Position numbers and translations under genes: made by a program
From: Ianthella basta
Taxonomy: Eukaryota > Porifera > Demospongiae > Verongiida > Ianthellidae
DNA length: 64,000 bases
Assembly: GCA_964019415.1 (NCBI GenBank)
Contig: OZ025880.1
Span: 3,712,813-3,776,812, forward strand
Direction: 5' to 3'
The notes under the pieces: generated by a model
The model's input: only the letters and a program-made list of their open reading frames with translations
What the model was told of the DNA's origin: nothing
Databases searched by the model: none
Shown here: piece by piece, positions 11,357-50,309 of the stretch
Layout of the letters: each line of letters starts with the position of its first letter
Position numbering within the stretch: the stretch's first letter is position 1

Positions 11357-14271
11357 ATGGAGTTCTGGGTAGTTGCTTTTCTCTTTCTCGTGGCATTCTT
11401 TCCCCAGGGGAGGGCTACATCGGAGCACAGTAAGTTATTAGTGCACCTCTCTTCCAATAGAAGCACCCTCTCGTCACCCTGCATCTACTTCTTCTGCAAC
11501 TTGCTCTCTCACGCAGGTATTCGCCTTCTCTACTACAACTTCACAACATGCAACTCGTACGGTCAGTTCGGCCCAACCATCGCCGAGTGCAGGGACTACT
11601 ACGAGAACAAGCTCTCCCCAATAGCGGGTCGGCTGACGGAGGATGTCGGCGACCTAACTGGAGTGCAGCATTTTGTTGTTCCTCAAAGTGGTCGCTACGT
11701 GGTGACGGTGGCCGGTGCTCGTGGAGGGAAAGGTGTGTGCACGCGCTGGCCAGGACTGAGTCCGATGGCGCAGTTGACGGTGACGTTAGAGAAGGACGCT
11801 GTGCTCGAAGTTGTGGTAGGACAGATGGGGAGAGATGCGTGCGACAACAATGTAAACGGCATGCATCTGTGCGACGTGGTAATTTCAGACATCGCAGAAG
11901 CAGTTAACTGCTCGATGCAGTGGGAGAGCATGGTCCCTGCAGAAGTGAACTTATATGATGGTGGGGGTGGAGCAGGAGGCGGCAGTCTGTTACGGTATAC
12001 TGGGTCTACTATCCCAATAATACTAGTTGGTGGAGGAGGTGGAGAAAGTGCTCAGTTTCCTAACATCACAGAGGAGCAAAACATGCAGCGAGTGACAGAG
12101 AAGAATGGTCAAGTATCTCAAGGCTTCACTACAGGGCCAGGAACCCGTCCTGTAGCAGCAGGTAAGCAAGCATTCAGACAAGGAGGCATGCACATAGCCC
12201 GACAGGCATGTGGTTTACAGTTGTCACTTCAACTTTGTACCTGCAGGGTTGCTAACTGCAGGAAGAGGTAGTGGAAACAGGTTTTCAATCCTGGATGGTG
12301 CCACTGCTATTGATGGTAAATCATTTGGTATTTCAACTGCTGAGTTTGCACAAGGTGGCCGAGACTGTTACACCATTACTGATACCCCTGCTTATTTCCC
12401 TGACACCTATGGTGGGTATGGTGGTGGAGGGGGAGGCTGTGGGAATGGACCAGGAGGAGGAGGCTACCAAGGGGGGTCTGTACGTAGCACATCAAATACC
12501 CAAAATGGGGAGGGTGGCTACTTGTTTCCCAGTAATGAAGTACAGATCTTGGGCTACAACTCTGGTCATGGCTTTGTCAGCTTGCGTCTGGAGGGCTGTG
12601 GATGTGCTCATAACTGCTCCATTGACTTTGAGAGGTCCGTCTTTGCCTGTTCTTGCCCTGAAGGGGCTATTCCTAGTCCAGATGGTTTTGATTGCCATAG
12701 AGGTAAGGTATTTGATTGAATGTGTGCTTTATCTTGTTATTCACTGAAGGCCACATAGTTCTCTCAGGGTTGGTCATGCAGTGAAGTGCTGATGAAATAT
12801 TCTAGATCTGCTTCAATTTTCATCTGTAGAAGTTGTCTTGAGCTTCACCAGCACTTCTTCACTGGAACCGTTGACCACCATCTCAATGGAATATGGCCAG
12901 ATAGTCCTCACTCCACTGTTACTGGATAGTACCCAGACAGTGTACATTGTTGGCCTGTCTCTGTCATTGTCAAAATCACCTCCATCTATGGATGCCTTAT
13001 GTGGGGTCATCCTCACTGATTCTGGTGGGAACATTGTTGCAGTTATACACAACACACTTGGGTGAGTGTATTAATCACAGCAAGACACATAATGTCCGTA
13101 GTACTATATGTGATAGGTGATAGCGACTGATGTGGTTCATTGTCTTGTCCGATCTCAGTTTTTGGTAGAGTGGGGTGTGCTATTACATCTTTCAAGATGA
13201 TGTCACAATCAATCTGTTTGACAGTTCTATAACTTGCTTTTCACCCAATTTAAAATCATTGTCTTTATTATTATCCCATTGTCTAAGTCACAATATACTT
13301 TAAGCATTACCATTACACTGAATGAATAATTCATATCTTGCTGCATATGAGTGACTATTGTATGATTAAACTGTGAGTTCTTAGTAGTACTTCTCTGAAG
13401 AGCTCATTATGATATATGTGGCATGTTGAAACGTACAGCACCTCTATGTACACTAAACAACTATCTCTCTTTGTACATGCACTGTTTTGCTTCTGGTCAT
13501 GGCCACAACAGGTCTGCAGGTAGTTCTCTCATCCAGCGTGTGACATTGCTGGATTCCTGTTGTGGCAATGTCAGCTTCACTGTGGAGAGCCCTGTGTTAC
13601 TGCTGAATGGTTCAGTGGAGGTGGCTGGTGGTTATGTCTACCACTCAGAAGGAGTCAGTTGTGATGTGAATATGATGGCAGTGCAGGCTAACGTCAGCAT
13701 TAGGGAGGGGATGCCAATAGGTGAGGTGCTGTGTGAATGGCTTTTGTTTCATGATGGAATGTGTCATGATCCTTTTGAAATGTGAGGTAAATTTGTGCAT
13801 TGTCTGCACATTCAATACAGTATAAAATATATGCATTAAACTATGCATATAAGCCTTGCAGTTGTGTAGTCAATGTATGCACATTTGTCATGCATGCTGA
13901 ACACCCATTAAGTATGCTGTAATACTTGTTTCTTCCCAGGCAGTGCAACTGCACTAAACAGCGCCTTGCTACCCGCATTCTTTGAGTCTCTTTCTGCCTT
14001 CAGTAACTCTCCAAACAACACCAGTGGCCCTGACCACAATCCATCAATTGTGGAGCCTATTCCATACATCTGGTGGATTGTGGGTGCAATGGGAGGGACC
14101 ATACTAGCCCTCTTTTTCATTGTATCTATACTTGTGACGGGTTATGCCACTGTCAAGAAAAGAAGTGAGTGCACAAATATTTGTATGTATAACATATGTA
14201 TGGTATATTGTTGTCATTGTGGGATTCACTGTACAAGGATAACAAATTTGTCAGGCCTGTACACGTGTTGA
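11357..14271 (+). CDS. Gene A: ALK/LTK-type glycine-rich receptor ectodomain, kinase-less
   Basis: Exons 11357-11429, 11517-12161, 12247-12702, 12830-13061, 13512-13720 and 13940-14164 encode, in order: a signal peptide (FWVVAFLFLVAFF core); an ALK/LTK-like glycine-rich domain (FTTCNSYGQFGPT, VVVGQMGRDAC, LVGGGGGES, GGYGGGGGGCGNGPGGGGY); a Cys-rich EGF-like module (CGCAHNCSID, CSCPEG); a region of about 170 aa I cannot classify; and a transmembrane helix (WWIVGAMGGTILALFFIVSI) with a basic stop-transfer KKR. The first five exons have the same lengths as in gene B (73, 645, 456, 232, 209 bp) and the proteins are roughly 94% identical over exon 2. The TM exon is 1 bp shorter than in B and ends in a different phase. 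No kinase exon follows before gene B. Reading on after 14164 gives a short tail and a stop at 14269-14271. Probably a membrane protein without kinase; a degrading partial duplicate is the alternative. Confidence 0.82.
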
Positions 14272-15100
14272 TCTATAGAGTGAGTCAAGCAAGACTTGTG
14301 TCTGTCATGAGTTGGATGGTATAGTAATAGGAGCGGAGAGTAGGGAATATAATGGAATGGGGTGTGGCAGAGTGCTGGAGGTTCGGTGTGTGTTGGGGTG
14401 GGTGTTAGTAGTGTGGGAGGCAGTGGGGAGGTGTGGAAGTGAGTGGCCATGGTAGAGTTTGGTGGCAGTGGTAGAGGCAATACCATCTTCTTCCTGACAT
14501 ACATAGGCAGGAAGTACAATAGGAAGTGACAACTACTTCACATATGTATGAATAGCATGCATAGTGTATGCACTCAGCTCACATAGTGACACACCTACGT
14601 ACGTATGTATGCCAGGATGAAGCAGCAGTAGGAAGTGTGTGTCACTATGTGAGCTGAGTGCATACTGTATGCATGCTATTCATACATATGTGAAGTAGTT
14701 GTCACTTGCAGCAGTAGGAAGTGCTACCAAGGCAACTGTATATGTGTTGGGTGAAAGTAAAATGCTTTCATTTGTAGAGTTCACATGTATAGTTTGGACT
14801 TGGTGTATTGACACATTCAAGTGTGAATTTCTGTGTTGCCCTGGCTACACATGTGATGTGCATGTGATCTTAAAGCCTGAGACATTAATTATCAATTAGT
14901 CACTGAAGCGACTTCATCAAATGTAATTTATAGAACAAGGGATAAGCTGGGTAAGAAGGAGATGTGGCTAAAAACTTTGTCATTGTCAAGCTGAGAATTT
15001 CCAATGAGGCTGACAATCCCCTATGATTGCGACAAATTGCCTGCTTTTAATGCATAGTAACTGTAAAGTGATGTGTCAAAGGGGACCGGTTACTGTCACG
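14272..15100. other. 3' flank of gene A with end of the duplicated segment
   Basis: G-rich DNA at 14330-14480 matches the G-rich stretch after the TM exon of gene B (23930-24120). The stretch 14705-14780 (GGAAGTGCTACCAA, GTGAAAG) resembles 24255-24325. Similarity fades after about 14780, which marks the distal edge of the A/B duplication. A 68-bp inverted repeat is listed separately. Confidence 0.55.
14527..14704. repeat. Inverted repeat, 68-bp near-identical arms
   Basis: Arms 14527-14594 and 14637-14704 are reverse complements apart from a few bases near the middle (GTGTATGC against CAGTATGC), separated by about 42 bp. The shape suits a foldback/MITE insertion or a long hairpin RNA. Gene B has only a diverged single-arm-like sequence at the corresponding place (24150-24245). 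Confidence 0.85.
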
Positions 15101-15800
15101 TGAACACCAATAACTGGATGACCAGCAATGGGCTGAAGCTCATCCATTGATAAGACCCAGTGTATGCTCATCCATTAACCAAGAGCCAGAGAGTTGATCC
15201 ACCAACCCTCGATCTGCATCCACCTCACTGGTTCTCAAATTGAGCAGGTGTCTAGTTTCAATCTTTTTGGTGTAGTTGTAAATGGCACTTGACCTGGTCC
15301 AACCACATCAACCATATTGTTACCAAAGTGTACATCTCATAACTTCATCCTCAGGTGTCTTACCTGGTTTCTTCCGCAATCTCCCTTGGTCCTCTACCTA
15401 AGTCTTGCATCCTGCCTTTGGTTGACTACTGTGATACTGTATGGGACAACTGTACCCAGGACGGCTCTTCTCACCTCCAATCCCTTTTCAACTACAGTGA
15501 ACTACAGTATGCCTGTCGATTGCCTGCCATCACCTTCGTCTCTCCTTCTCCTCTGCCCTCTGGAAGGAACTAGGTCTTTCTTCACTTTGCTGCTTCATCT
15601 TACCAAGTTGACTTACAATACAAATGCCATTAATCATTTGTTCCTCTCTATCTATCATCCCTCTTTTGTCTACACACCCACATGGACAAGAACCTTTGTC
15701 AACCTTCCCGTGGTGAGGACAACTTTTGGGCAACACACATTTGCGTACACTAGTGCTTCCCTGTGGTGCTCTCTACCTGCCTCACTAGCTACATGAATCT
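15100..15800 (+). mobile_element. Decayed CR1/L2-like LINE fragment
   Basis: Plus-strand pieces correspond to the C-terminal part of an RT polyprotein: a 'NNWMTSNGLKL'-like stretch at 15105-15140, then HLTWSNHINHI at about 15285-15320, then ILPLVDYCDTVWDNC near 15410-15450. The same order occurs in the longer relic at 30.1-30.8 kb (TWMSNNGLKLN, LTCTDHINHV, ILPHLDYCDVVWY), so both come from one family. Several frameshifts; not functional. Confidence 0.7.
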
Positions 15801-15849
15801 GGATTCCCAGAGGAATTTTCAAGAGCTGCTTAATCTTACATTGACTCAC

Positions 15850-18700
15850 TCACATCACAATGACATCTGAATGTTTAATTATGCATGCTACATATTAAAT
15901 TTCTCCTGGTGCCTGCTTTTGTCTTTTCTTTCTCTTTTTTCGCTTTGTCTTGTACTGTATTGTTTCTTCCACTGCATAAATAAGCTTACCAAATGTACAT
16001 AGCAAGTCAATAGATAGACAAACTAAGACATTTCAACCACAAAGTTCTTCATCAGTTACAAAACTTCCTTACCAAGTGTATGCAATGGACGAAAGCTAGA
16101 AGGGTAGCACTATAAAATGGCTGGCAGGCAACAAGGTTGTATCTTATGGACTGCTACTGTAACTAGTGTAGCCAGCAAATCATTATTTGTCAAATTGTCC
16201 TGCACAGAATTGAATGATTCCCAAGCCAAGGACATTATCTAACTATTCCTGTGTATAATTTGTTTATACATTAGCTGTTTATGTGTGAAGTTATAAGATG
16301 TGTAATGTGCACTGAATTTGAATGGGAATGGAGCTGGATTACTCCATGTAACCTTACAGTAGACTAATTTACATATGTATGACCTGCATGCATGGAACAC
16401 CTAGGGTGTGTGATGCCATGCTTACAGTTTCTTAATCTATTTCTTCCTCACTTGCAATGACTGAATTGTGCTCTTTATCTGGGGTGTACTGTACTTTGGA
16501 ATGTGACAGAGTAGATGTAGGGTACAATCTAGTACAAATGAAATCAGTCAGTAAAGTGACAGTACAGGCTCATGTCTTGGCTCTTGTCCTTGCAATCAGT
16601 GTCTTATGTGAGTCTGTACTCTGAAGTGATTTACTATGTTTCCTCAATTCCCTAGATCTGTCGACTAAGGCAAGGCAGTCTCCTCTACGTGTACTAACAG
16701 TGAACCCAGAGTAACAATGGCTGAACACCACTATCAGATCGCATTCACTGATATTTTCATTGTGTGCAGTTTGTTTTCAGTATAAGCTTGCACCTGTTCC
16801 TAACAGAACAAAGTTTGACAAAATTTATGCTCAATAACATGTTTGGTAGAGAGTCATTGCTACAATGTGCATAGCAAGAAATGAGATAAGGTAATGCTTA
16901 GCCAATACTAAACAAAGGTAGTGTCCAGAATAACAAGTCCTGAGTGCATGATCGAGGGCATTAGGAGCAGCGAAATTATATATACATTAGGGGAAGCGGT
17001 GATGTATATAATTACCGCCAAGATGGCGCAGATCCAGCACACTCGAATTAGAGTTCGAACTCACTAAGCCACCATGTATAACTTCTGGTTCTTAGCGATG
17101 GTTCATTCACCTGGTAACAGCTACTGAAGCAACTTGTACCCACTCTCCACAATCTCCTGTCTTGGTCCTACTCCATTGCACTAAGTTAGATAGCTATAGC
17201 TAGCTATTATTCCAGTATATTGTGCCATCTACTTTGTTCAGTTATAACATTGTCATCCTCTGAGTAGTTTTGCTAATGTATAGTGTCTCAGTTAGTGGTG
17301 CATCAGTTATATTACTACATGCCTTTGGTTTGTTCCAGTTCTTGGTCTCCTGGCCAGGTTCTGCAGTTTTTTTCCATTGTTTTTTCAATGTGATCAGGCC
17401 AAGATAGGGTATGTGGCATGTGGTTTAATACTGCATTTCCAAAACACTTTGACATGGGATATCAACAGATATGTATACTGTAATGAAGGTTATTCATAAC
17501 ATCTAACTTGTTTAGTTGGAAATCTTGGTTGCTTGGCAACCATGTTGAATTCCAATACTAAGTCTTCTACTATGATTGGCGAAGGCATCCTCTCAAATTC
17601 AAACGATATGTGTTTTACAATGGACTTGGAATGTTTCCATGGATACAGTTCGATTGGGCTGTTGAATCAATCAATGGCATTCACAATCCATATTTAAGGT
17701 ACAGTTGTAGTTAGCTATTAGAAGACATACATAAAGATAGACAGATAGATAGGTAATCTATTCAAAAGGAAAGCCCCTTCAGTCAAAGACTGGTATTAAT
17801 GGTGATCCTGAAGTACATACACAGTTATTTAAAATAAAGTGATGTCGTAGCAAATATGTAAATTGTTCGTAAATTTAAGTGACTGCATGTAGGGCATTAA
17901 ATGTCTCTTAGCCTATGCAGGTGAGGTAAAGGGAGGTAAGTAGGGACAGGGGAGGAAATTAAGAAGGAGATCTTGCAGATGTTATATAGTACATAGCGTC
18001 TGCGGGACCTAGCTCCTCCTTACCTCCCCTGTCCCTACTACCAGAAGGAAGCAATTCATGGATTCTTCAGTGAGGTTATATACGAACTATGGCTGCAAGT
18101 TAACCATCCCTAAAGGAATCAGTGCACTGTACAGCTAGTGCTTGGGTAGTAGCAAGAGTTTTTATTAAATTTTGAACTTAGATAGGTACTGTAGGAGCTT
18201 GTTGAAAAACACATTGGTGTACCTGACACAGCATGAAGCTAACTGCAACTGTACCTTGCTGCATCTCCCAACCAAGTCCTGAAGGAAAGTAAAACTTTAG
18301 AACCCACGTATATGAATGTGTATAATGAGCAGACCAGTGTATACGTATGTCACAATATTTAATTATATGGTTTACTATGGTTGCCATGAAAGGGCCACTG
18401 ACTGCACATGGCATTATTGCTTAGCTCAGAGATTGCATGTACAAGCATTTTGTATTATACGGTACATAAGAGTGCATTGATTGTGTATACATGCCCCTGA
18501 GGAGAAGAGTCCAGTCATATCGTTATGTTATGACACATAGGGTGAAACTCTAGAACACTTCTTGCATCTATAAATTTTATCAGCTTCTGCTATCAATTAC
18601 CTCATTTTACCTTTCCCTCAGTCCAAATTTACACTTATGGTCTCCTCTGGAAACTATTGAGATCCACACTGATTGTAGACAGATGTCCAGGGAATGTAGA
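15850..18700. other. Intergenic spacer between genes A and B
   Basis: No coding sequence supported. It includes an imperfect inverted repeat at about 17936-18046, in which an AGTAGGGACAGGGGAGG-type stretch is repeated in reverse orientation after roughly 50 bp. A short GTTCGAAC palindrome at about 17070 lacks any surrounding tRNA fold. Confidence 0.45.
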
Positions 18701-18744
18701 GAATAAATTCAACTAAAGCACAACAGGCCTAGGTTGGCTCCTCT

Positions 18745-20300
18745 TCTTCTAGGCTGCTAACTTGTGCTGCCAGCCTGAGCTAATCCTGTTTCTCTGGCTA
18801 TGTGGTTTAATACATCCTGTAGCATTAATTCTCTGATGTAGCATTACATTAACCGAAAGGTTCAGACCGGAGTAGAACCTGCTCTCATGCACAACTTTGA
18901 TCTTCTGTTGGCCCTCAGCTGGATGTATGTAATAGATCAGATCATACATAGAGAACAGAAGTGCCTTGCCAGGGTTGCTGCAATGAGGGGCATACAGAAT
19001 TTTCCTTTAAGTGAGGATTCATGTAGCTACACTGGATCCCTGTCCTTCTATTATTCACTCTTCAACAAATCAAAATCTGCTTCATCCTACCACAGATCAT
19101 CTTCAGGTGATCCTTGGCAAAGTGATGAACCAGCTCCAGATTTCCACTTTGGTAGGTCAACATTGTAGTCTGCTCTGAATCTGGGATCTCTTCCCTATAA
19201 GTGTATGCATAATACACTAATAGGTACGCGTAGGTCTCCTCCAGTGAGTGCTGGAGTGCAGTTTATGGATTCATGCAAATGGCAGACAATATGAAGTATC
19301 AGGTACACTCATCCCAGTCTTGAAGTGTGTCATAATAGTCTGTAAGCTTGACTACCAGGACTGGTCATCAATGCTCCTATATGCAAACCATCTCATCTGC
19401 TTGCAGTTGGTATTAATTTGTCTTGTGCGTCCTAGCTGCAGCAACTGGTGCATTTCAGCAAATGTATCCATTTCAGGGTGCAAGTTGGTGTGAAGACTGT
19501 ACAAATGTTCAGTGGGGTGTATGTTCCCTTCAGCCTCTCGCTTTCTCCGCGGACATGTGGGATGCAGATAGTAAGTGAAGGTGGTGGGTGAGGTACATTG
19601 CGGGTGGTGTTAACAGAGTCTTCTTCACAAGTCAGGCAGGAAAGTCATTTGCCTGTAACACATCCTCCAGCTGCAGATGGTGTAATTCGTGCTCCCTGGA
19701 TTCTGGGTGTGCCTGATTCTTCAGGTACCTCAGCACTCCAGAGATAGTCTTAGGGTGGTGGTGCAAGCTCTGTGTGGGTGCACGGGTTTGCGATGGACTG
19801 ATGTAAGTAGATTTATCACTTCTTCTTGGATGATGGCACCTAGGGATGGTAGTGTGCCTCCTTTTTCTTCTTCCATGAATGGAAAATTTGGGTGGAGGTT
19901 GTTCTGGTGCTGATGGTATCTGTGCAGCTCCTCCTGCCTACGTGACCAGATAACAAAGGTAACATCAAAATACCAACAGCACAACCTGAACTGCAGTCAG
20001 AGTGATCAGATGGCCTCCTCTTCCAAGTTCAACATAAACAATGTGGCGATGATGGGTGAGACAGGAGAACACATGGCTGTCCCCTCAATCTGTTCATAGT
20101 ATACACTGCTCACTCTTTAAGCAGTTGAGAAAAGCTCTTTAGTTAGAACATCCTGCAATCCCTCTCCCAGAAGCTGCTGTAGCTATGGCTCATTCACTTC
20201 CTGCTTAGCTAGATAAATGTGCTGACACAGCCAAGGGACCCCATATGGGGTGCCCAATATCATCCCTATTCTTGCATGACACCAGTGTCATGTGTGAATG
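18745..20300 (-). mobile_element. Degraded Penelope-like element (RT plus endonuclease tail)
   Basis: Reading the minus strand downward from about 20110 gives YYEQIEGTAMCSPVSPIIAT, then FVIWSRRQEELHRYHQHQNN and LHPNFPF...GTLPSL...LLTSVHRKPVHPHR at 19984-19760. This is the usual motif order of Penelope-like reverse transcriptases (YEQIxGxxMGSPVSP, YVDDTFVIW, NxxHPxIxF, LPFLD, SVYRKPTHTDR). The YVDD box has decayed to Y-F-D-V and several stops interrupt. Further down, 18949-18800 encodes KIKVVHESRFYSGLNLSVNV, which resembles the end of the GIY-YIG endonuclease domain of these elements. Inactive relic. Confidence 0.72.
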
Positions 20301-20824
20301 GGTCCAGCTGGATTCTCATGACTAGCTATGGGGAACCGGGTTCCCAATCTCATAAAATTATGGGGACCCCCTTATGAATATGGGTCCCCCTAATTTACAT
20401 CATAAACAAAAGTATAATACATTGTTAGATATAACGTGGCATTAATGAGTGTTACTATTCCACACATGGGGTGGCACCACAACACATGATCACTCTGTCT
20501 TGTCACTCTCAACGGTGGAACCTGACTAAGATAGTCACTGTGCTAGGCAACCACCTCATAACCAGCATAATTATCCTTTCATGAGTGGAATTCGAAGGTC
20601 TGTAGGAAGGAAGCGACTACGCAGCTACTCGGTACCCGTGCTACTTACTACCGGTATGCGCTTGACTACGTATGTACCACAACATAGACACACCGACCAC
20701 ATTTGTATACCAAAAGGGTGAATCCCGCCACCTTACGTCATCCGGTTTGGTGACAATCAGCTGTGGGTACGTAGTTCAAGGCACGCCGGGATCATCCTCC
20801 GCACTCAGTCGGGGCTGGAGCAGG
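20300..20824. promoter_or_regulatory. 5' flank of gene B
   Basis: About 520 bp upstream of the gene B start, with no coding signal. It must carry the promoter. An upstream in-frame ATG exists at 20672 but lies outside the segment shared with gene A and precedes the signal peptide, so it is unlikely to be used. Confidence 0.3.
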
Positions 20825-29321
<8,497 letters not shown>

Positions 29322-46097: not shown

Positions 46098-49000
46098 AGA
46101 CTCTCCCCTCCCCTCACACACTAGCCGCTCCCCCTCCCCTCACACACTAGCCGCTCCCCCTCCCCCTCACACACTAGCCGCTCCCCCTCCCCTCACACAC
46201 TAGCCGCTCCCCCTCCCCTCACACACTAGCCGCTCCCCCTCCCCTCACACACTAGCCGCTCCCCCTCCCCTCACACATTAGCCGCTCCCCCTCCCCTCAC
46301 ACACTAGCCGCTCCCCCTCCCTCACACACTAGCCACTCCCCCTCCCCCTCACACACTAGCCGCTCCCCCTCCCCTCACACACTAGCCGCTCCCCCTCCCC
46401 TCACACACTAGCCGCTCCCCCTCTCCTCACACACTAGCCGCTCCCCCTCCCCCTCACACACTAGCCGCTCCCCCTCCCCCTCACACACTAGCCGCTCCCC
46501 CTCCCTCGCACACTAGCCGCTCCCCCTCCCCCTCACACACTAGCCGCTCCCCCTCCCTCACACACTAGCCGCTCCCCCTCCCCTCACACACTAGCCGCTC
46601 CCCCTCCCCTCACACACTAGCCGCTCCCCCTCCCCCTCACACACTAGCCGCTCCCCCTCCCCTCACACACTAGCCGCTCCCCCTCCCCCTCACACATTAG
46701 CCGCTCCCCCTCCCCTCACACACTAGCCGCTCCCCCTCCCCCTCACACACTAGTCGCTCCCCCTCCCCTCACACACTAGCAGCTCCCCTCCCCTCACACA
46801 CTAGCCGCTCCCCCTCCCCTCACACACTAGCCGCTCCCCCTCCCCCTCACACACTAGCCGCTCCCCCTCCCCTCACACACTAGCCGCTCCCCCTCCCCCT
46901 CACACACTAGCCGCTCCCCCTCCCCCTCACACACTAGCCGCTCCCCCTCCCCTCACACACTAGCCGCTCCCCCTCCCCCTCACACACTAGCAGCTCCCCC
47001 TCCCCTCACACACTAGCCGCTCCCCCTCCCCCTCACACACTAGCCGCTCCCCCTCCCCCTCACACACTAGCCGCTCCCCCTCCCCTCACACACTAGCCGC
47101 TCCCCCTCCCCCTCACACACTAGCCGCTCCCCCTCTCCTCACACACTAGCCGCTCCCCCTCTCCTCACACACTAGCCGCTCCCCCTCCCCCTCACACACT
47201 AGCCGCTCCCCCTCTTTTCACACACTAGCCGCTCCCCCTCCCCCTCACACACTAGCCGCTCCCCCTCCCCCTCACACACTAGCCGCTCCCCCTCCCCTCA
47301 CACACTAGCCGCTCCCCCTCCCCCTCACACACTAGCCGCTCCCCCTCCCCCTCACACACTAGCCGCTCCCCCTCTTTTCACACACTAGCCGCTCCCCCTC
47401 CCCCTCACACACTAGCCGCTCCCCCTCCCCCTCACACACTAGCCGCTCCCCCTCCCCTCACACACTAGCCGCTCCCCCTCCCCCTCACACACTAGCCGCT
47501 CCCCCTCCCCCTCACACACTAGCCGCTCCCCCTCCCCTCACACACTAGCCGCTCCCCCTCCCCCTCACACACTAGCCGCTCCCCCTCCCCCTCACACACT
47601 AGCCGCTCCCCCTCCCCTCACACACTAGCCGCTCCCCCTCCCCCTCACACACTAGCCGCTCCCCCTCCCCCTCACACACTAGCCGCTCCCCCTCCCCTCA
47701 CACACTAGCCGCTCCCCCTCCCCCTCACACACTAGCCGCTCCCCCTCCCCCTCACACACTAGCCGCTCCCCCTCCCCTCACACACTAGCCGCTCCCCCTC
47801 CCCCTCACACACTAGCCGCTCCCCCTCCCCCTCACACACTAGCCGCTCCCCCTCCCCTCACACACTAGCCGCTCCCCCTCACACACTAGCCGCTCCCCCT
47901 CCCCCTCACACACTAGCCGCTCCCCCTCCCCCTCACACACTAGCCGCTCCCCCTCCCCTCACACACTAGCCGCTCCCCCTCCCCCTCACACACTAGCCGC
48001 TCCCCCTCCCCTCACACACTAGCCGCTCCCCCTCCCCTCACACACTAGCCGCTCCCCCTCCCCATCACACACTAGCCGCTCCCCCTCCCCCTCACACACT
48101 AGCCGCTCCCCCTCCCCTCACACACTAGCCGCTCCCCCTCCCCCTCACACACTAGCCGCTCCCCCTCCCCTCACACACTAGCCGCTCCCCCTCCCCCTCA
48201 CACACTAGCCGCTCCCCCTCCCCCTCACACACTAGCCGCTTCCCCTCCCCTCACACACTAGCCGCTTCCCCTCCCCCTCACACACTAGCCGCTCCCCCTC
48301 CCCCTCACACTAGCCGCTCCCCCTCCCCCTCACACACTAGCCGCTCCCCCTCCCCTCACACACTAGCCGCTCCCCCTCCCCCTCACACACTAGCCGCTCC
48401 CCCTCCCCCTCACACACTAGCCGCTCCCCCTCCCCCTCACACACTAGCCGCTCCCCCTCCCCTCACACACTAGCCGCTCCCCCTCCCCCTCACACACTAG
48501 CCGCTCCCCCTCCCCTCACACACTAGCCGCTCCCCCTCCCCCTCACACATTAGCTGCTCCCCCTCCCCTCACACACTAGCCGCTCCCCCTCCCCCTCACA
48601 CACTAGCCGCTCCCCCTCCCCCTCACACATTAGCTGCTCCCCCTCCCCTCACACACTAGCCGCTCCCCCTCCCCCTCACACACTAGCCGCTCCCCCTCCC
48701 CCTCACACATTAGCTGCTCCCCCTCCTTTCACACACTAGCTGCTCCCCCTCACCCTCACACACTGGCTGCTCCCCCTCACCCTCACACACTAGCTGCTCC
48801 CCCTCCCCCTCACACACTAGCTGCTCCCCCTCACCCTCACACACTGGCTGCTCCCCTCCCCCTCACACACTAGCTGCTCCCCTCTCCCTCACACACTAGC
48901 TGCTCACCCTCACCCTCACACACTAGCTGCTCCCCTCCCCCTCACACACTAGCTGCTCCCCTCTCCCTCACACACTAGCTGCTCCCCCTCACCCTCACAC

Positions 49001-50053
49001 ACTGGCTGCTCCCCTCCCCCTCACACACTAGCTGCTCCCCTCCCCCTCACACACTAGCTGCTCCCCCTCACCCTCACATACTGGCTGCTCCCCCTCACCC
49101 TCACACATTAGCTGCTCCCCTCTCCCTCACACACTAGCTGCTTCCCCTCCCCTTCACACACTAGCTGCTCCCCCTCCCCCTCACACACTAGCTGCTCCCC
49201 TCTCCCTCACACACTAGCTGCTTCCCCTCCCCTTCACACACTAGCTGCTCCCCCTCCCCCTCACACACTAGCTGCTCCCCTCTCCCTCACACACTAGCTG
49301 CTCCCCCTCACCCTCACACACTGGCTGCTCCCCCTCCCCCTCACACACTAGCTGCTCCCCTCTCCCTCACACACTAGCTGCTCACCCTCACCCTCACACA
49401 CTGGCTGCTCCCCCTCCCCCTCACACACTAGCTGCTCCCCTCTCCCTCACACACTAGCTGCTCCCCCTCACCCTCACACACTAGCTGCTCCCCTCTCCCT
49501 CACACACTAGCTGCTCCCCCTCACCCTCACACACTGGCTGCTCCCCCTCCCTCTCACACACTAGCTGCTCCCCCTCTCCCTCACACACTAGCTGCTCCCC
49601 TCTCCCTCACACACTAGCTGCTCCCCTCTCCCTCACACACTAGCTGCTCCCCTCTCCCTCACACACTAGCTGCTACCCCTCCCCCTCACACACTAGCTGC
49701 TCCCCCTCCCCCTCACACACTAGCTGCTCCCCCTCCCCCTCACACACTAGCTGCTCCCCCTCCCCCTCACACACTAGCTGCTCCCCTCTCCCTCACACAC
49801 TAGCTGCTCACCCTCACCCTCACACACTGGCTGCTCCCCCTCCCCCTCACACACTAGCTGCTCCCCCTCCCCCTCACACACTAGCTGCTCCCCCTCCCCC
49901 TCACACACTAGCTGCTCCCCCTCCCCCTCACACACTAGCTGCTCCCCCTCCCTCTCACACACTAGCTGCTCACCCTCACCCTCACACACTAGCTGCTCCC
50001 CCTCCCCCTCACACACTAGCTGCTCCCCCTCCCCCTCACACACTAGCTGCTCC
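46098..50053. repeat. 4-kb minisatellite of 26/27-bp units
   Basis: About 148 tandem copies of CACACACTAGCCGCTCCCCC followed by TCCCCT or TCCCCCT. Units are 26 or 27 bp depending on one C. Between about 47.2 and 47.87 kb they form a regular 80-bp higher-order unit (27+27+26), seen as exact recurrence every 240 bp. From about 48.54 kb the AGCCGCT core changes to AGCTGCT, with further variants (CTGGCTGCT, CCCTCACCCT). One strand is almost pure C/T within each spacer. It ends about 260 bp from the OSGEPL1 stop codon. The minus-strand EGEGEQLVC open frame in the last part (49774-50238) is a by-product of the 27-bp unit length. Confidence 0.98.
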
Positions 50054-50309
50054 CTTCTTGGCACCATACATGCTGGGTGCCCTGGTGCTTCTCTGCCCAC
50101 ACCACCCACACAGCCATCTGGCCCTTTGTAATGGTCTGCACAAGACTGTCCTGATATCAGTGGTGCACAGTAAGGGATGCTGGGAAATACGCATTGTATA
50201 TAAGGAATGTGTATACTACAGGTGCCAATAAGCAGCACAAATCATGCCAATAACAAATTACTACATTATGTGCGCAGGTATAAGTGATGTGTGTATGGTA
50301 TGGTGTGTG

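Follow-up and report, generated by a model that had tools for sequence, protein, structure and literature searches.

Near-identical ALK-like ectodomains beside different cytoplasmic modules in the sponge Ianthella basta: a possible paired-receptor-like gene cluster

In the genome of the demosponge Ianthella basta, two neighbouring genes encode nearly the same receptor ectodomain, and only one of them goes on to encode a kinase. Both lie in a stretch of 64,000 nucleotides (nt; GenBank assembly GCA_964019415.1, contig OZ025880.1, positions 3,712,813 to 3,776,812, forward strand), which is called the window here. What might a kinase-less receptor (gene A) do next to a kinase-bearing one (gene B)? 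A preliminary description of the window treated the two as a tandem pair, A being a possible membrane-bound decoy or co-receptor for the ligand of B. The pairwise view had to be given up: A and B are two of eleven genes with two ectodomain families within 0.4 Mb. The anatomy of this cluster is well supported. We consider it on balance probable that its ectodomain cassette (exons 1-6) and its swappable cytoplasmic modules form a paired-receptor-like system derived from receptor tyrosine kinases, the function of the receptors being deduced from their sequences.

As far as is known, paired receptors are chiefly immunoglobulin (Ig) and lectin receptors on the immune cells of vertebrates. If the proposed reading is true, another animal would have arrived at this logic by way of receptor kinases, which would open the origin of activating/inhibitory pairs to testing. 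In a collection of open-access papers, searched by titles and abstract openings, no published account of such a cluster was found.

Two ectodomain families and three cytoplasmic modules

A protein search of the genome with exon 2 of B gave 16 places, all of which were scored. Six copies that are 92-100% identical to B exon 2 form family 1: A, B and, on the minus strand of contig C13, C (3908k), D (3957k), E (3977k) and F (4077k). Five minus-strand copies at 44-46% form family 2 (3862k, 3883k, 4059k, 4091k, 4099k). The remaining five matches, on contigs C13, C9 and C2, are weaker, two of them being interrupted by stops. Among themselves, the family-2 copies are 87-93% identical whatever their module, and exon 2 of E, F and C is 41-46% identical to family 2. 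Exons 1-6 are open and of equal length in the six family-1 copies, except for exon 6 of A. Gene B is composed as follows (window positions, basis in brackets).

20825..20897, plus strand: exon 1, signal peptide (sequence reading)
20982..21626, plus strand: exon 2, ALK-like glycine-rich domain, GRD (phmmer)
21724..22179, plus strand: exon 3, end of the GRD and EGF-like module (phmmer)
22259..22490, plus strand: exon 4 (sequence reading)
23140..23348, plus strand: exon 5 (sequence reading)
23627..23852, plus strand: exon 6, stalk and transmembrane (TM) segment, phase 2 donor (donor comparison across the cluster)
24630..29321, plus strand: cytoplasmic module, kinase I, ten exons (splice model, Pfam)
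24630-24735, 25227-25295, 25926-26090, 26271-26357, 26645-26783, plus strand: first five kinase I exons
26982-27072, 27518-27651, 27930-28089, 28305-28424, 28898-29321, plus strand: last five kinase I exons

Spliced B reads without a stop through a receptor kinase over 1111 amino acids (aa), and its kinase matches Pfam PK_Tyr_Ser-Thr (hmmscan, E 2.8e-82). Just 3' of its first cytoplasmic exon lies a 65-copy GT repeat (24747-24877).

Among solved structures the best match of the B ectodomain is ALK (7mzw, phmmer E 2.6e-27, query residues 5-365); LTK (7nx0) follows with E 9.4e-18. As in the ALK/LTK family, a glycine-rich domain is followed by a membrane-proximal EGF-like module, but the cluster genes have an extra 150-odd residues between the EGF module and the stalk/TM exon. 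ALK carries MAM and LDLa domains and LTK lacks them; in B, no such Pfam family was detected at E <= 1. Pfam PF12810 exceeded its cut-off on exon 2 of A, B exon 2 was not among the seven matches listed, and hmmscan reported this family for neither spliced A nor spliced B. In the structure matches of kinase I the top row is 9p9u, an entry labelled EGFR in which no single stretch passes; MuSK, IGF1R, insulin receptor and ABL come next. Kinase II likewise has 9p9u in the top row, ahead of a SRC-ABL ancestor, VEGFR1, PDGFR, Kit and FGFR. ALK is not among the best 60 of 585 matches of kinase I or the best 60 of 814 of kinase II.

Three modules are found behind these ectodomains: kinase I, kinase II and a kinase-less tail of 33-36 residues with a VYYxxV motif. 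Kinase I is carried by B in family 1 and by 3862k and 3883k in family 2, kinase II by E and F in family 1, by 4059k in family 2 and by a partial gene, G, and the short tail by C and D in family 1 and by 4091k and 4099k in family 2. Both families have all three modules, and in ten of the eleven genes the module comes next in order on the same strand; for A none was found. Near-identical ectodomains stand beside different cytoplasmic parts in the sequence, as expected of paired receptors, the joins being predicted. In the family-2 genes, too, the TM exon lies between ectodomain and module. Its donor is AG/GTGAGY in phase 2 in B, C, D, E, F and all five family-2 genes, that is in ten of the eleven cluster genes, and also in G; the exception is A. 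In hypothetical joins, the B, C and E donors keep the frame into the opening kinase I exon of B, the opening kinase II exon of E and the tails of C and D.

The four short-tail exons were located by tail matches in the cluster.

C13 3901479-3901586: short-tail exon
C13 3951986-3952084: short-tail exon
C13 4086364-4086462: short-tail exon
C13 4095838-4095945: short-tail exon

The tails of C (RKSNSAPEKSVYYETVQSDGVEIQANPAHEFTDEEK) and D (RKSNCPSEKSVYYDSVQSDGVQMQANPAYERVH) each end at a stop codon of their own, and short tails are 67-79% identical across the ectodomain families. VYYETV, VYYDSV or VYYDTV occurs in all four short tails behind a GRD ectodomain and in the one tail read of the 19 on contig C1, and matches in sequence the immunoreceptor tyrosine-based inhibitory motif (ITIM), whose consensus is [SIVL]xYxx[IVL]. 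Three of the four short tails also have NPAY or SPAY. Between E and 4059k the kinase II modules are 92% identical over 292 aa, and between E and F 91%; for exon 2 the values are 43% (E and 4059k) and 96% (E and F). Since kinase II is alike across families whose exon 2 has diverged, module exchange is recent relative to ectodomain divergence.

How such receptors might work can be sketched. Each TM exon would splice via its phase-2 donor to the adjoining module, and one ectodomain family would mean one common ligand. Upon ligand binding, kinase I and kinase II members would trans-phosphorylate, and short-tail members would bind the same ligand, joining or competing with the kinase members. The tyrosines of VYYxxV and of NPAY/SPAY in the tails may be phosphorylated by kinase siblings and recruit SH2 or PTB proteins. 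Short-tail members could in this way counter, modulate or redirect the kinase signal, as in paired receptors.

Three further pieces were seen on C13. Partial gene G (4027895-4032666) consists of exons 4-6 and kinase II, with no exon 2 or exon 3 match in the 4 kb upstream; it may be truncated or have another N-terminus. A third, more distant GRD ectodomain lies at 4117907-4123038, and after it comes an exon resembling kinase I (57% to the B exon 26271-26357). Pieces of a second kinase II copy lie downstream of the F kinase (4068362-4069218).

Homogenised ectodomain exons and swap points

Are the ectodomains alike because the genes are young, or have their exons been kept alike? At synonymous sites, A differs from each family-1 copy by 0.09-0.13 in exons 2-5 and by 0.33-0.39 in exons 1 and 6 (p 6e-9 to 7e-6, uncorrected like all p-values of this contrast); for A and B the values are 0.10 and 0.38 (Fisher p 3e-8). 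B and C, which have different module types, differ in the same manner (proportion of synonymous differences, pS, 0.09 versus 0.36, p 4e-8), and C is likewise more similar to B, E and F at silent sites in exons 2-5 (p 4e-8 to 1e-5). The contrast is weaker for B-D (9e-4), C-D (0.01), D-E (3e-4) and D-F (0.04); altogether it reaches p < 0.05 in 12 of the 15 family-1 pairs. Exon 5 shows 97-100% nucleotide identity across the six family-1 copies, although in A the introns on either side of it reach only 50-60% identity to those of B. These data are most simply read as gene conversion confined to exons 2-5. Apparent homogenisation of ectodomain exons across cytoplasmic types, a mark of paired receptors, is seen in this cluster.

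Similarity between copies also breaks in places. D and E are 95% identical over 433 nt of intron 5 but only 78% in exon 6, where D is 86% identical to C, a gene with the same tail type. B is 92% identical to E and F in exon 6; over the 250 nt with which intron 6 begins, the identity is 36-37%. These breaks indicate swap points that flank exon 6 on either side. Exon-level recombination may swap receptor outputs: D resembles E in intron 5 and C in both exon 6 and tail.

Gene A: leftover or decoy

The features of A and of its downstream region are listed below (window positions, basis in brackets).

11357..11429, plus strand: exon 1, signal peptide, phase 1 donor (sequence reading)
11517..12161, plus strand: exon 2, first part of the ALK-like GRD (Pfam and comparison with B)
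12247..12702, plus strand: exon 3, end of the GRD and EGF-like module (homology to B)
12830..13061, plus strand: exon 4, membrane-proximal, without Pfam match (sequence reading, Pfam)
13512..13720, plus strand: exon 5 (97-99% nucleotide identity to the other five family-1 copies)
13940..14164, plus strand: exon 6, stalk and TM helix, donor A/GTGAGT in phase 1 (donor comparison)
14165..14271, plus strand: read-through past the donor, 35 aa (SECTNICMYNIC...LYTC), then stop (reading frame)
14709..14774, plus strand: patch resembling B intron 6 at 24259-24319 (DNA comparison, Smith-Waterman)
15107..15830, plus strand: dispersed repeat 3' of A (genome DNA matches)

Much of what the preliminary description said about A and B was borne out. 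Six exons are shared, giving both genes a signal peptide, a glycine-rich and EGF-like ectodomain and a TM helix; exons 1-5 have the same lengths (73/645/456/232/209); and the protein identity of about 94% given for exon 2 was measured at 93.9% (exon 5, 95.7%; exon 6, 56.8%). In nucleotides, exons 2-5 are 91-98% alike and exon 1 75%; introns 1, 3, 4 and 5 are 50-61% identical and intron 2 81%. Because of these four divergent introns, A is not a recent-looking copy of B. The statement that A keeps all ectodomain splice sites and frames is correct as to canonical GT/AG sites and to open frames, exons 1-6 having no stop or frameshift up to the junction, and 18 of 18 cysteines of A are common to the other five family-1 copies. 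It fails at the TM exon, which has 225 nt in A and 226 in B, so that the last donor is shifted by one base: the exon ends ...AAAAGAA/GTGAGT in phase 1 in A and ...AAAGGAG/GTGAGC in phase 2 in B. If this donor were left unspliced, the 35-aa read-through could be a tail of A.

Kinase exons were correctly assigned to B alone. With protein queries from the ten cytoplasmic exons of B, no match outside B was found in the window at E <= 0.01 (best match elsewhere, E 0.03 over 22 aa), and at the DNA level the 6.4 kb downstream of A share one 22-nt match with the kinase part of B. On these grounds, the idea that remains of kinase exons lie in the interval from A to B was rejected. No kinase or tail exon for A was found down to 20.6 kb, short-tail exons included. 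Similarity between A and B had been said to extend to 14.78/24.33 kb. It is not continuous, but a weak patch in intron 6 (14709-14774 and 24259-24319) scores 42 by Smith-Waterman against a maximum of 29 in 60 shuffles; the corresponding intron-6 comparisons are near background for A-C (30, shuffled maximum 33) and A-D (31, shuffled maximum 30). A duplication that ended before the kinase, as was proposed, is possible; the shared patch also fits a fuller duplication that was followed by loss of the kinase.

Could A borrow the kinase of B? As an alternative 5' half of B, A would contribute its TM exon to a long transcript that continues into the kinase exons of B. The two genes lie on the same strand, 6.7 kb apart, and share the weak intron-6 patch, but the consensus donor of A shifts the frame, with a stop after six residues (IERELF) on kinase I, and B has a signal peptide exon of its own. 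We regard this as highly improbable. The chimeric transcript was rejected as out of frame for the consensus donor of A; another donor would revive it. Other on-paper joins of the A donor end after seven residues on kinase II and after twenty on the C tail, and are in the wrong frame on the D tail.

Is A then a decaying gene? As a functionless duplicate it would have lost its kinase or never copied it, its donor would have drifted, and exons 2-5 would be intact only through conversion. This account, which comes close to an even chance, draws on the one-base shift of the TM donor, on the lack of a detectable tail or kinase exon down to 20.6 kb, on the drop in similarity to B outside exons 2-5 and on the private changes of exon 6 (stalk/TM), 14 nonsynonymous and 2 synonymous. 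It has to be set against six open exons, canonical splice sites, a consensus GTGAGT donor and the full set of cysteines, and the changes in exons 4 and 6 could be adaptive.

A functional membrane-anchored decoy or co-receptor, to which we give a fair way less than even chances, has in its favour that signal peptide, ligand-domain and TM exons are intact. In exons 2-5, A has 13 nonsynonymous and 12 synonymous private changes (dN/dS about 0.37; siblings 0.30-0.61), and, to judge by the kinase-less siblings, the cluster makes use of such receptors. Nevertheless, A is the sole gene of eleven without a module, and neither AATAAA nor ATTAAA occurs in the 801 nt past its read-through stop, though the 801 nt of E are equally without one. 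A may have an unrecognised last exon, as acceptor-led frames of 47-99 codons lie downstream (the longest, 99 codons, inside the dispersed repeat, the others 47-63). The dN/dS comparison put forward in the preliminary description gives 0.44-0.54 for A versus the other five copies and 0.12-0.28 for exon 2; such low values are no proof of selection because exons 2-5 look homogenised among copies, and A may have borrowed them from its siblings.

We rate decay slightly above a TM-anchored decoy, and A is best read as a membrane-anchored leftover, a decoy at best. If made, A would be a TM-anchored, short-tailed receptor capable only of competing for ligand or of forming inactive complexes. It may be in decay even as conversion from siblings refreshes its exons 2-5. 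The idea of a kinase-less decoy or co-receptor holds better for the family, with its four short-tail genes, than for A itself.

Two repeats were observed 3' of A. A near-perfect inverted repeat (14524-14707; 71-nt arms, 97% complementary, 42-nt loop) resembles, by eye, a miniature inverted-repeat transposable element. The dispersed repeat begins about 0.8 kb past the read-through stop; 14780-15900 as a query gave 33 other genome matches, mostly inside 15107-15830, and by eye only it looks like a long interspersed nuclear element.

Known systems and the wider genome

How does the cluster compare with known receptor systems? A study of Siglec-11 and Siglec-16 describes ligand-binding exons that are kept alike by gene conversion (PMC5701461), and one of Xenopus CEACAM genes describes paired receptors homogenised by conversion, with ITIM tails on the inhibitory members (PMC5112662). 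The likeness lies in clustered genes, near-identical homogenised ligand-binding exons and differing cytoplasmic parts (PMC5701461, PMC5112662). The Siglec and CEACAM ectodomains are of the Ig type, whereas the present cluster has an ALK-like ectodomain; furthermore, the signalling partner here is a receptor tyrosine kinase of two types, not a receptor with an immunoreceptor tyrosine-based activation motif, and the opposing function is a prediction.

A second parallel is FGFRL1, a kinase-less FGF receptor that was first regarded as a decoy and whose tandem tyrosine motif acts in trafficking (PMC12026108). Like FGFRL1 as outlined there (PMC12026108), genes C, D, 4091k and 4099k combine a kinase receptor ectodomain and TM helix with a short tail that has a tyrosine motif and its own stop; A, with no tail module found and a phase-shifted donor, does not have this layout. 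FGFRL1 differs in that it is a single gene, its ectodomain consists of Ig domains and its tail has about 100 residues, compared with four short-tail genes among kinase siblings here, and in the sponge a related tail occurs on what seems to be another receptor type. Holozoan receptor kinases combine kinase domains with varied ectodomains (PMC8662651). The cluster differs in that one ectodomain, at near-identity, also stands beside several different cytoplasmic parts, including one that has no kinase.

The modules are not confined to the cluster. The exon of kinase I that encodes DFG has at least three genome matches at 77% identity or more and at least six at E <= 1e-12 (150 scored of 425 candidates). 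For the corresponding exon of kinase II there are at least 87 matches (150 scored of 672 candidates), at least 68 of them at 75% identity or more, a large dispersed family (C4, C11, C13, C7, C2, C21, C22); at least 49 of these 68 lie on contigs without a GRD match (C4, C11, C7, C21, C22). The short tail has 23 genome matches, all scored: four in the cluster and 19 on C1 (9.47-11.37 Mb, 44-59% identity, E 4e-5 to 0.036, one with a stop). Genes with kinase II or the tail on other contigs were counted by exon matches, and one C1 locus was read in sequence over 3.5 kb. At this locus, TM helix and tail lie in a single exon, a piece with no Pfam match; the C1 tails apparently sit on another receptor type.

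Such abundance feeds an alternative to the whole proposal, namely ordinary birth-and-death duplication with domain shuffling, in which there is no paired logic and the tails are trafficking signals. Besides the spread of kinase II and the additional tails on C1, FGFRL1, whose tandem tyrosine motif serves trafficking (PMC12026108), is in keeping with this alternative. It sits less well with the occurrence of both ectodomain families with all three modules, and with ectodomain exons that look homogenised across module types, as in B and C. We hold it to be a real but lesser possibility.

Several observations weigh against the paired-receptor-like reading itself. Both kinase II and the tail are also frequent outside the cluster, so their presence in it need not mean pairing. 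The pairs B-E, B-F and E-F lack the synonymous contrast, and B, D, E and F agree to 78-98% in introns 1-3, which fits ordinary divergence of these copies. The predicted join between TM exon and kinase follows from order and strand in F, 3862k, 3883k and 4059k, and the first cytoplasmic exon of B has no recognisable counterpart in 3862k or 3883k. C has NPAH in place of NPAY/SPAY, the ITIM and NPxY readings of the tails are matches to motif definitions, and the ratio of nonsynonymous to synonymous differences in the short tails (pN/pS 0.22-2.29, from 1-5 synonymous differences) is uninformative. That the private dN/dS of A in exons 2-5 falls within the sibling range argues against plain decay of its ectodomain. 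Co-expression and opposing signals of the cluster members are predictions.

A more detailed version of the paired-receptor-like reading can be offered tentatively, as somewhat less than an even bet: two ALK-like families with a common phase-2 junction, two kinases and an ITIM-like tail, exon-limited homogenisation that would preserve ligand recognition, and tail and kinase II as general output modules of other receptor classes genome-wide.

With a sponge silicatein as query, the matches were at the level of cathepsins, the best being 49% identical over 120 aa. Elsewhere in the window, at 46105-50054, a C-rich unit of 27 bp is repeated in tandem about 149 times over 3.95 kb (94% match). The two strands of this array are extremely asymmetric (GC skew about -0.75).

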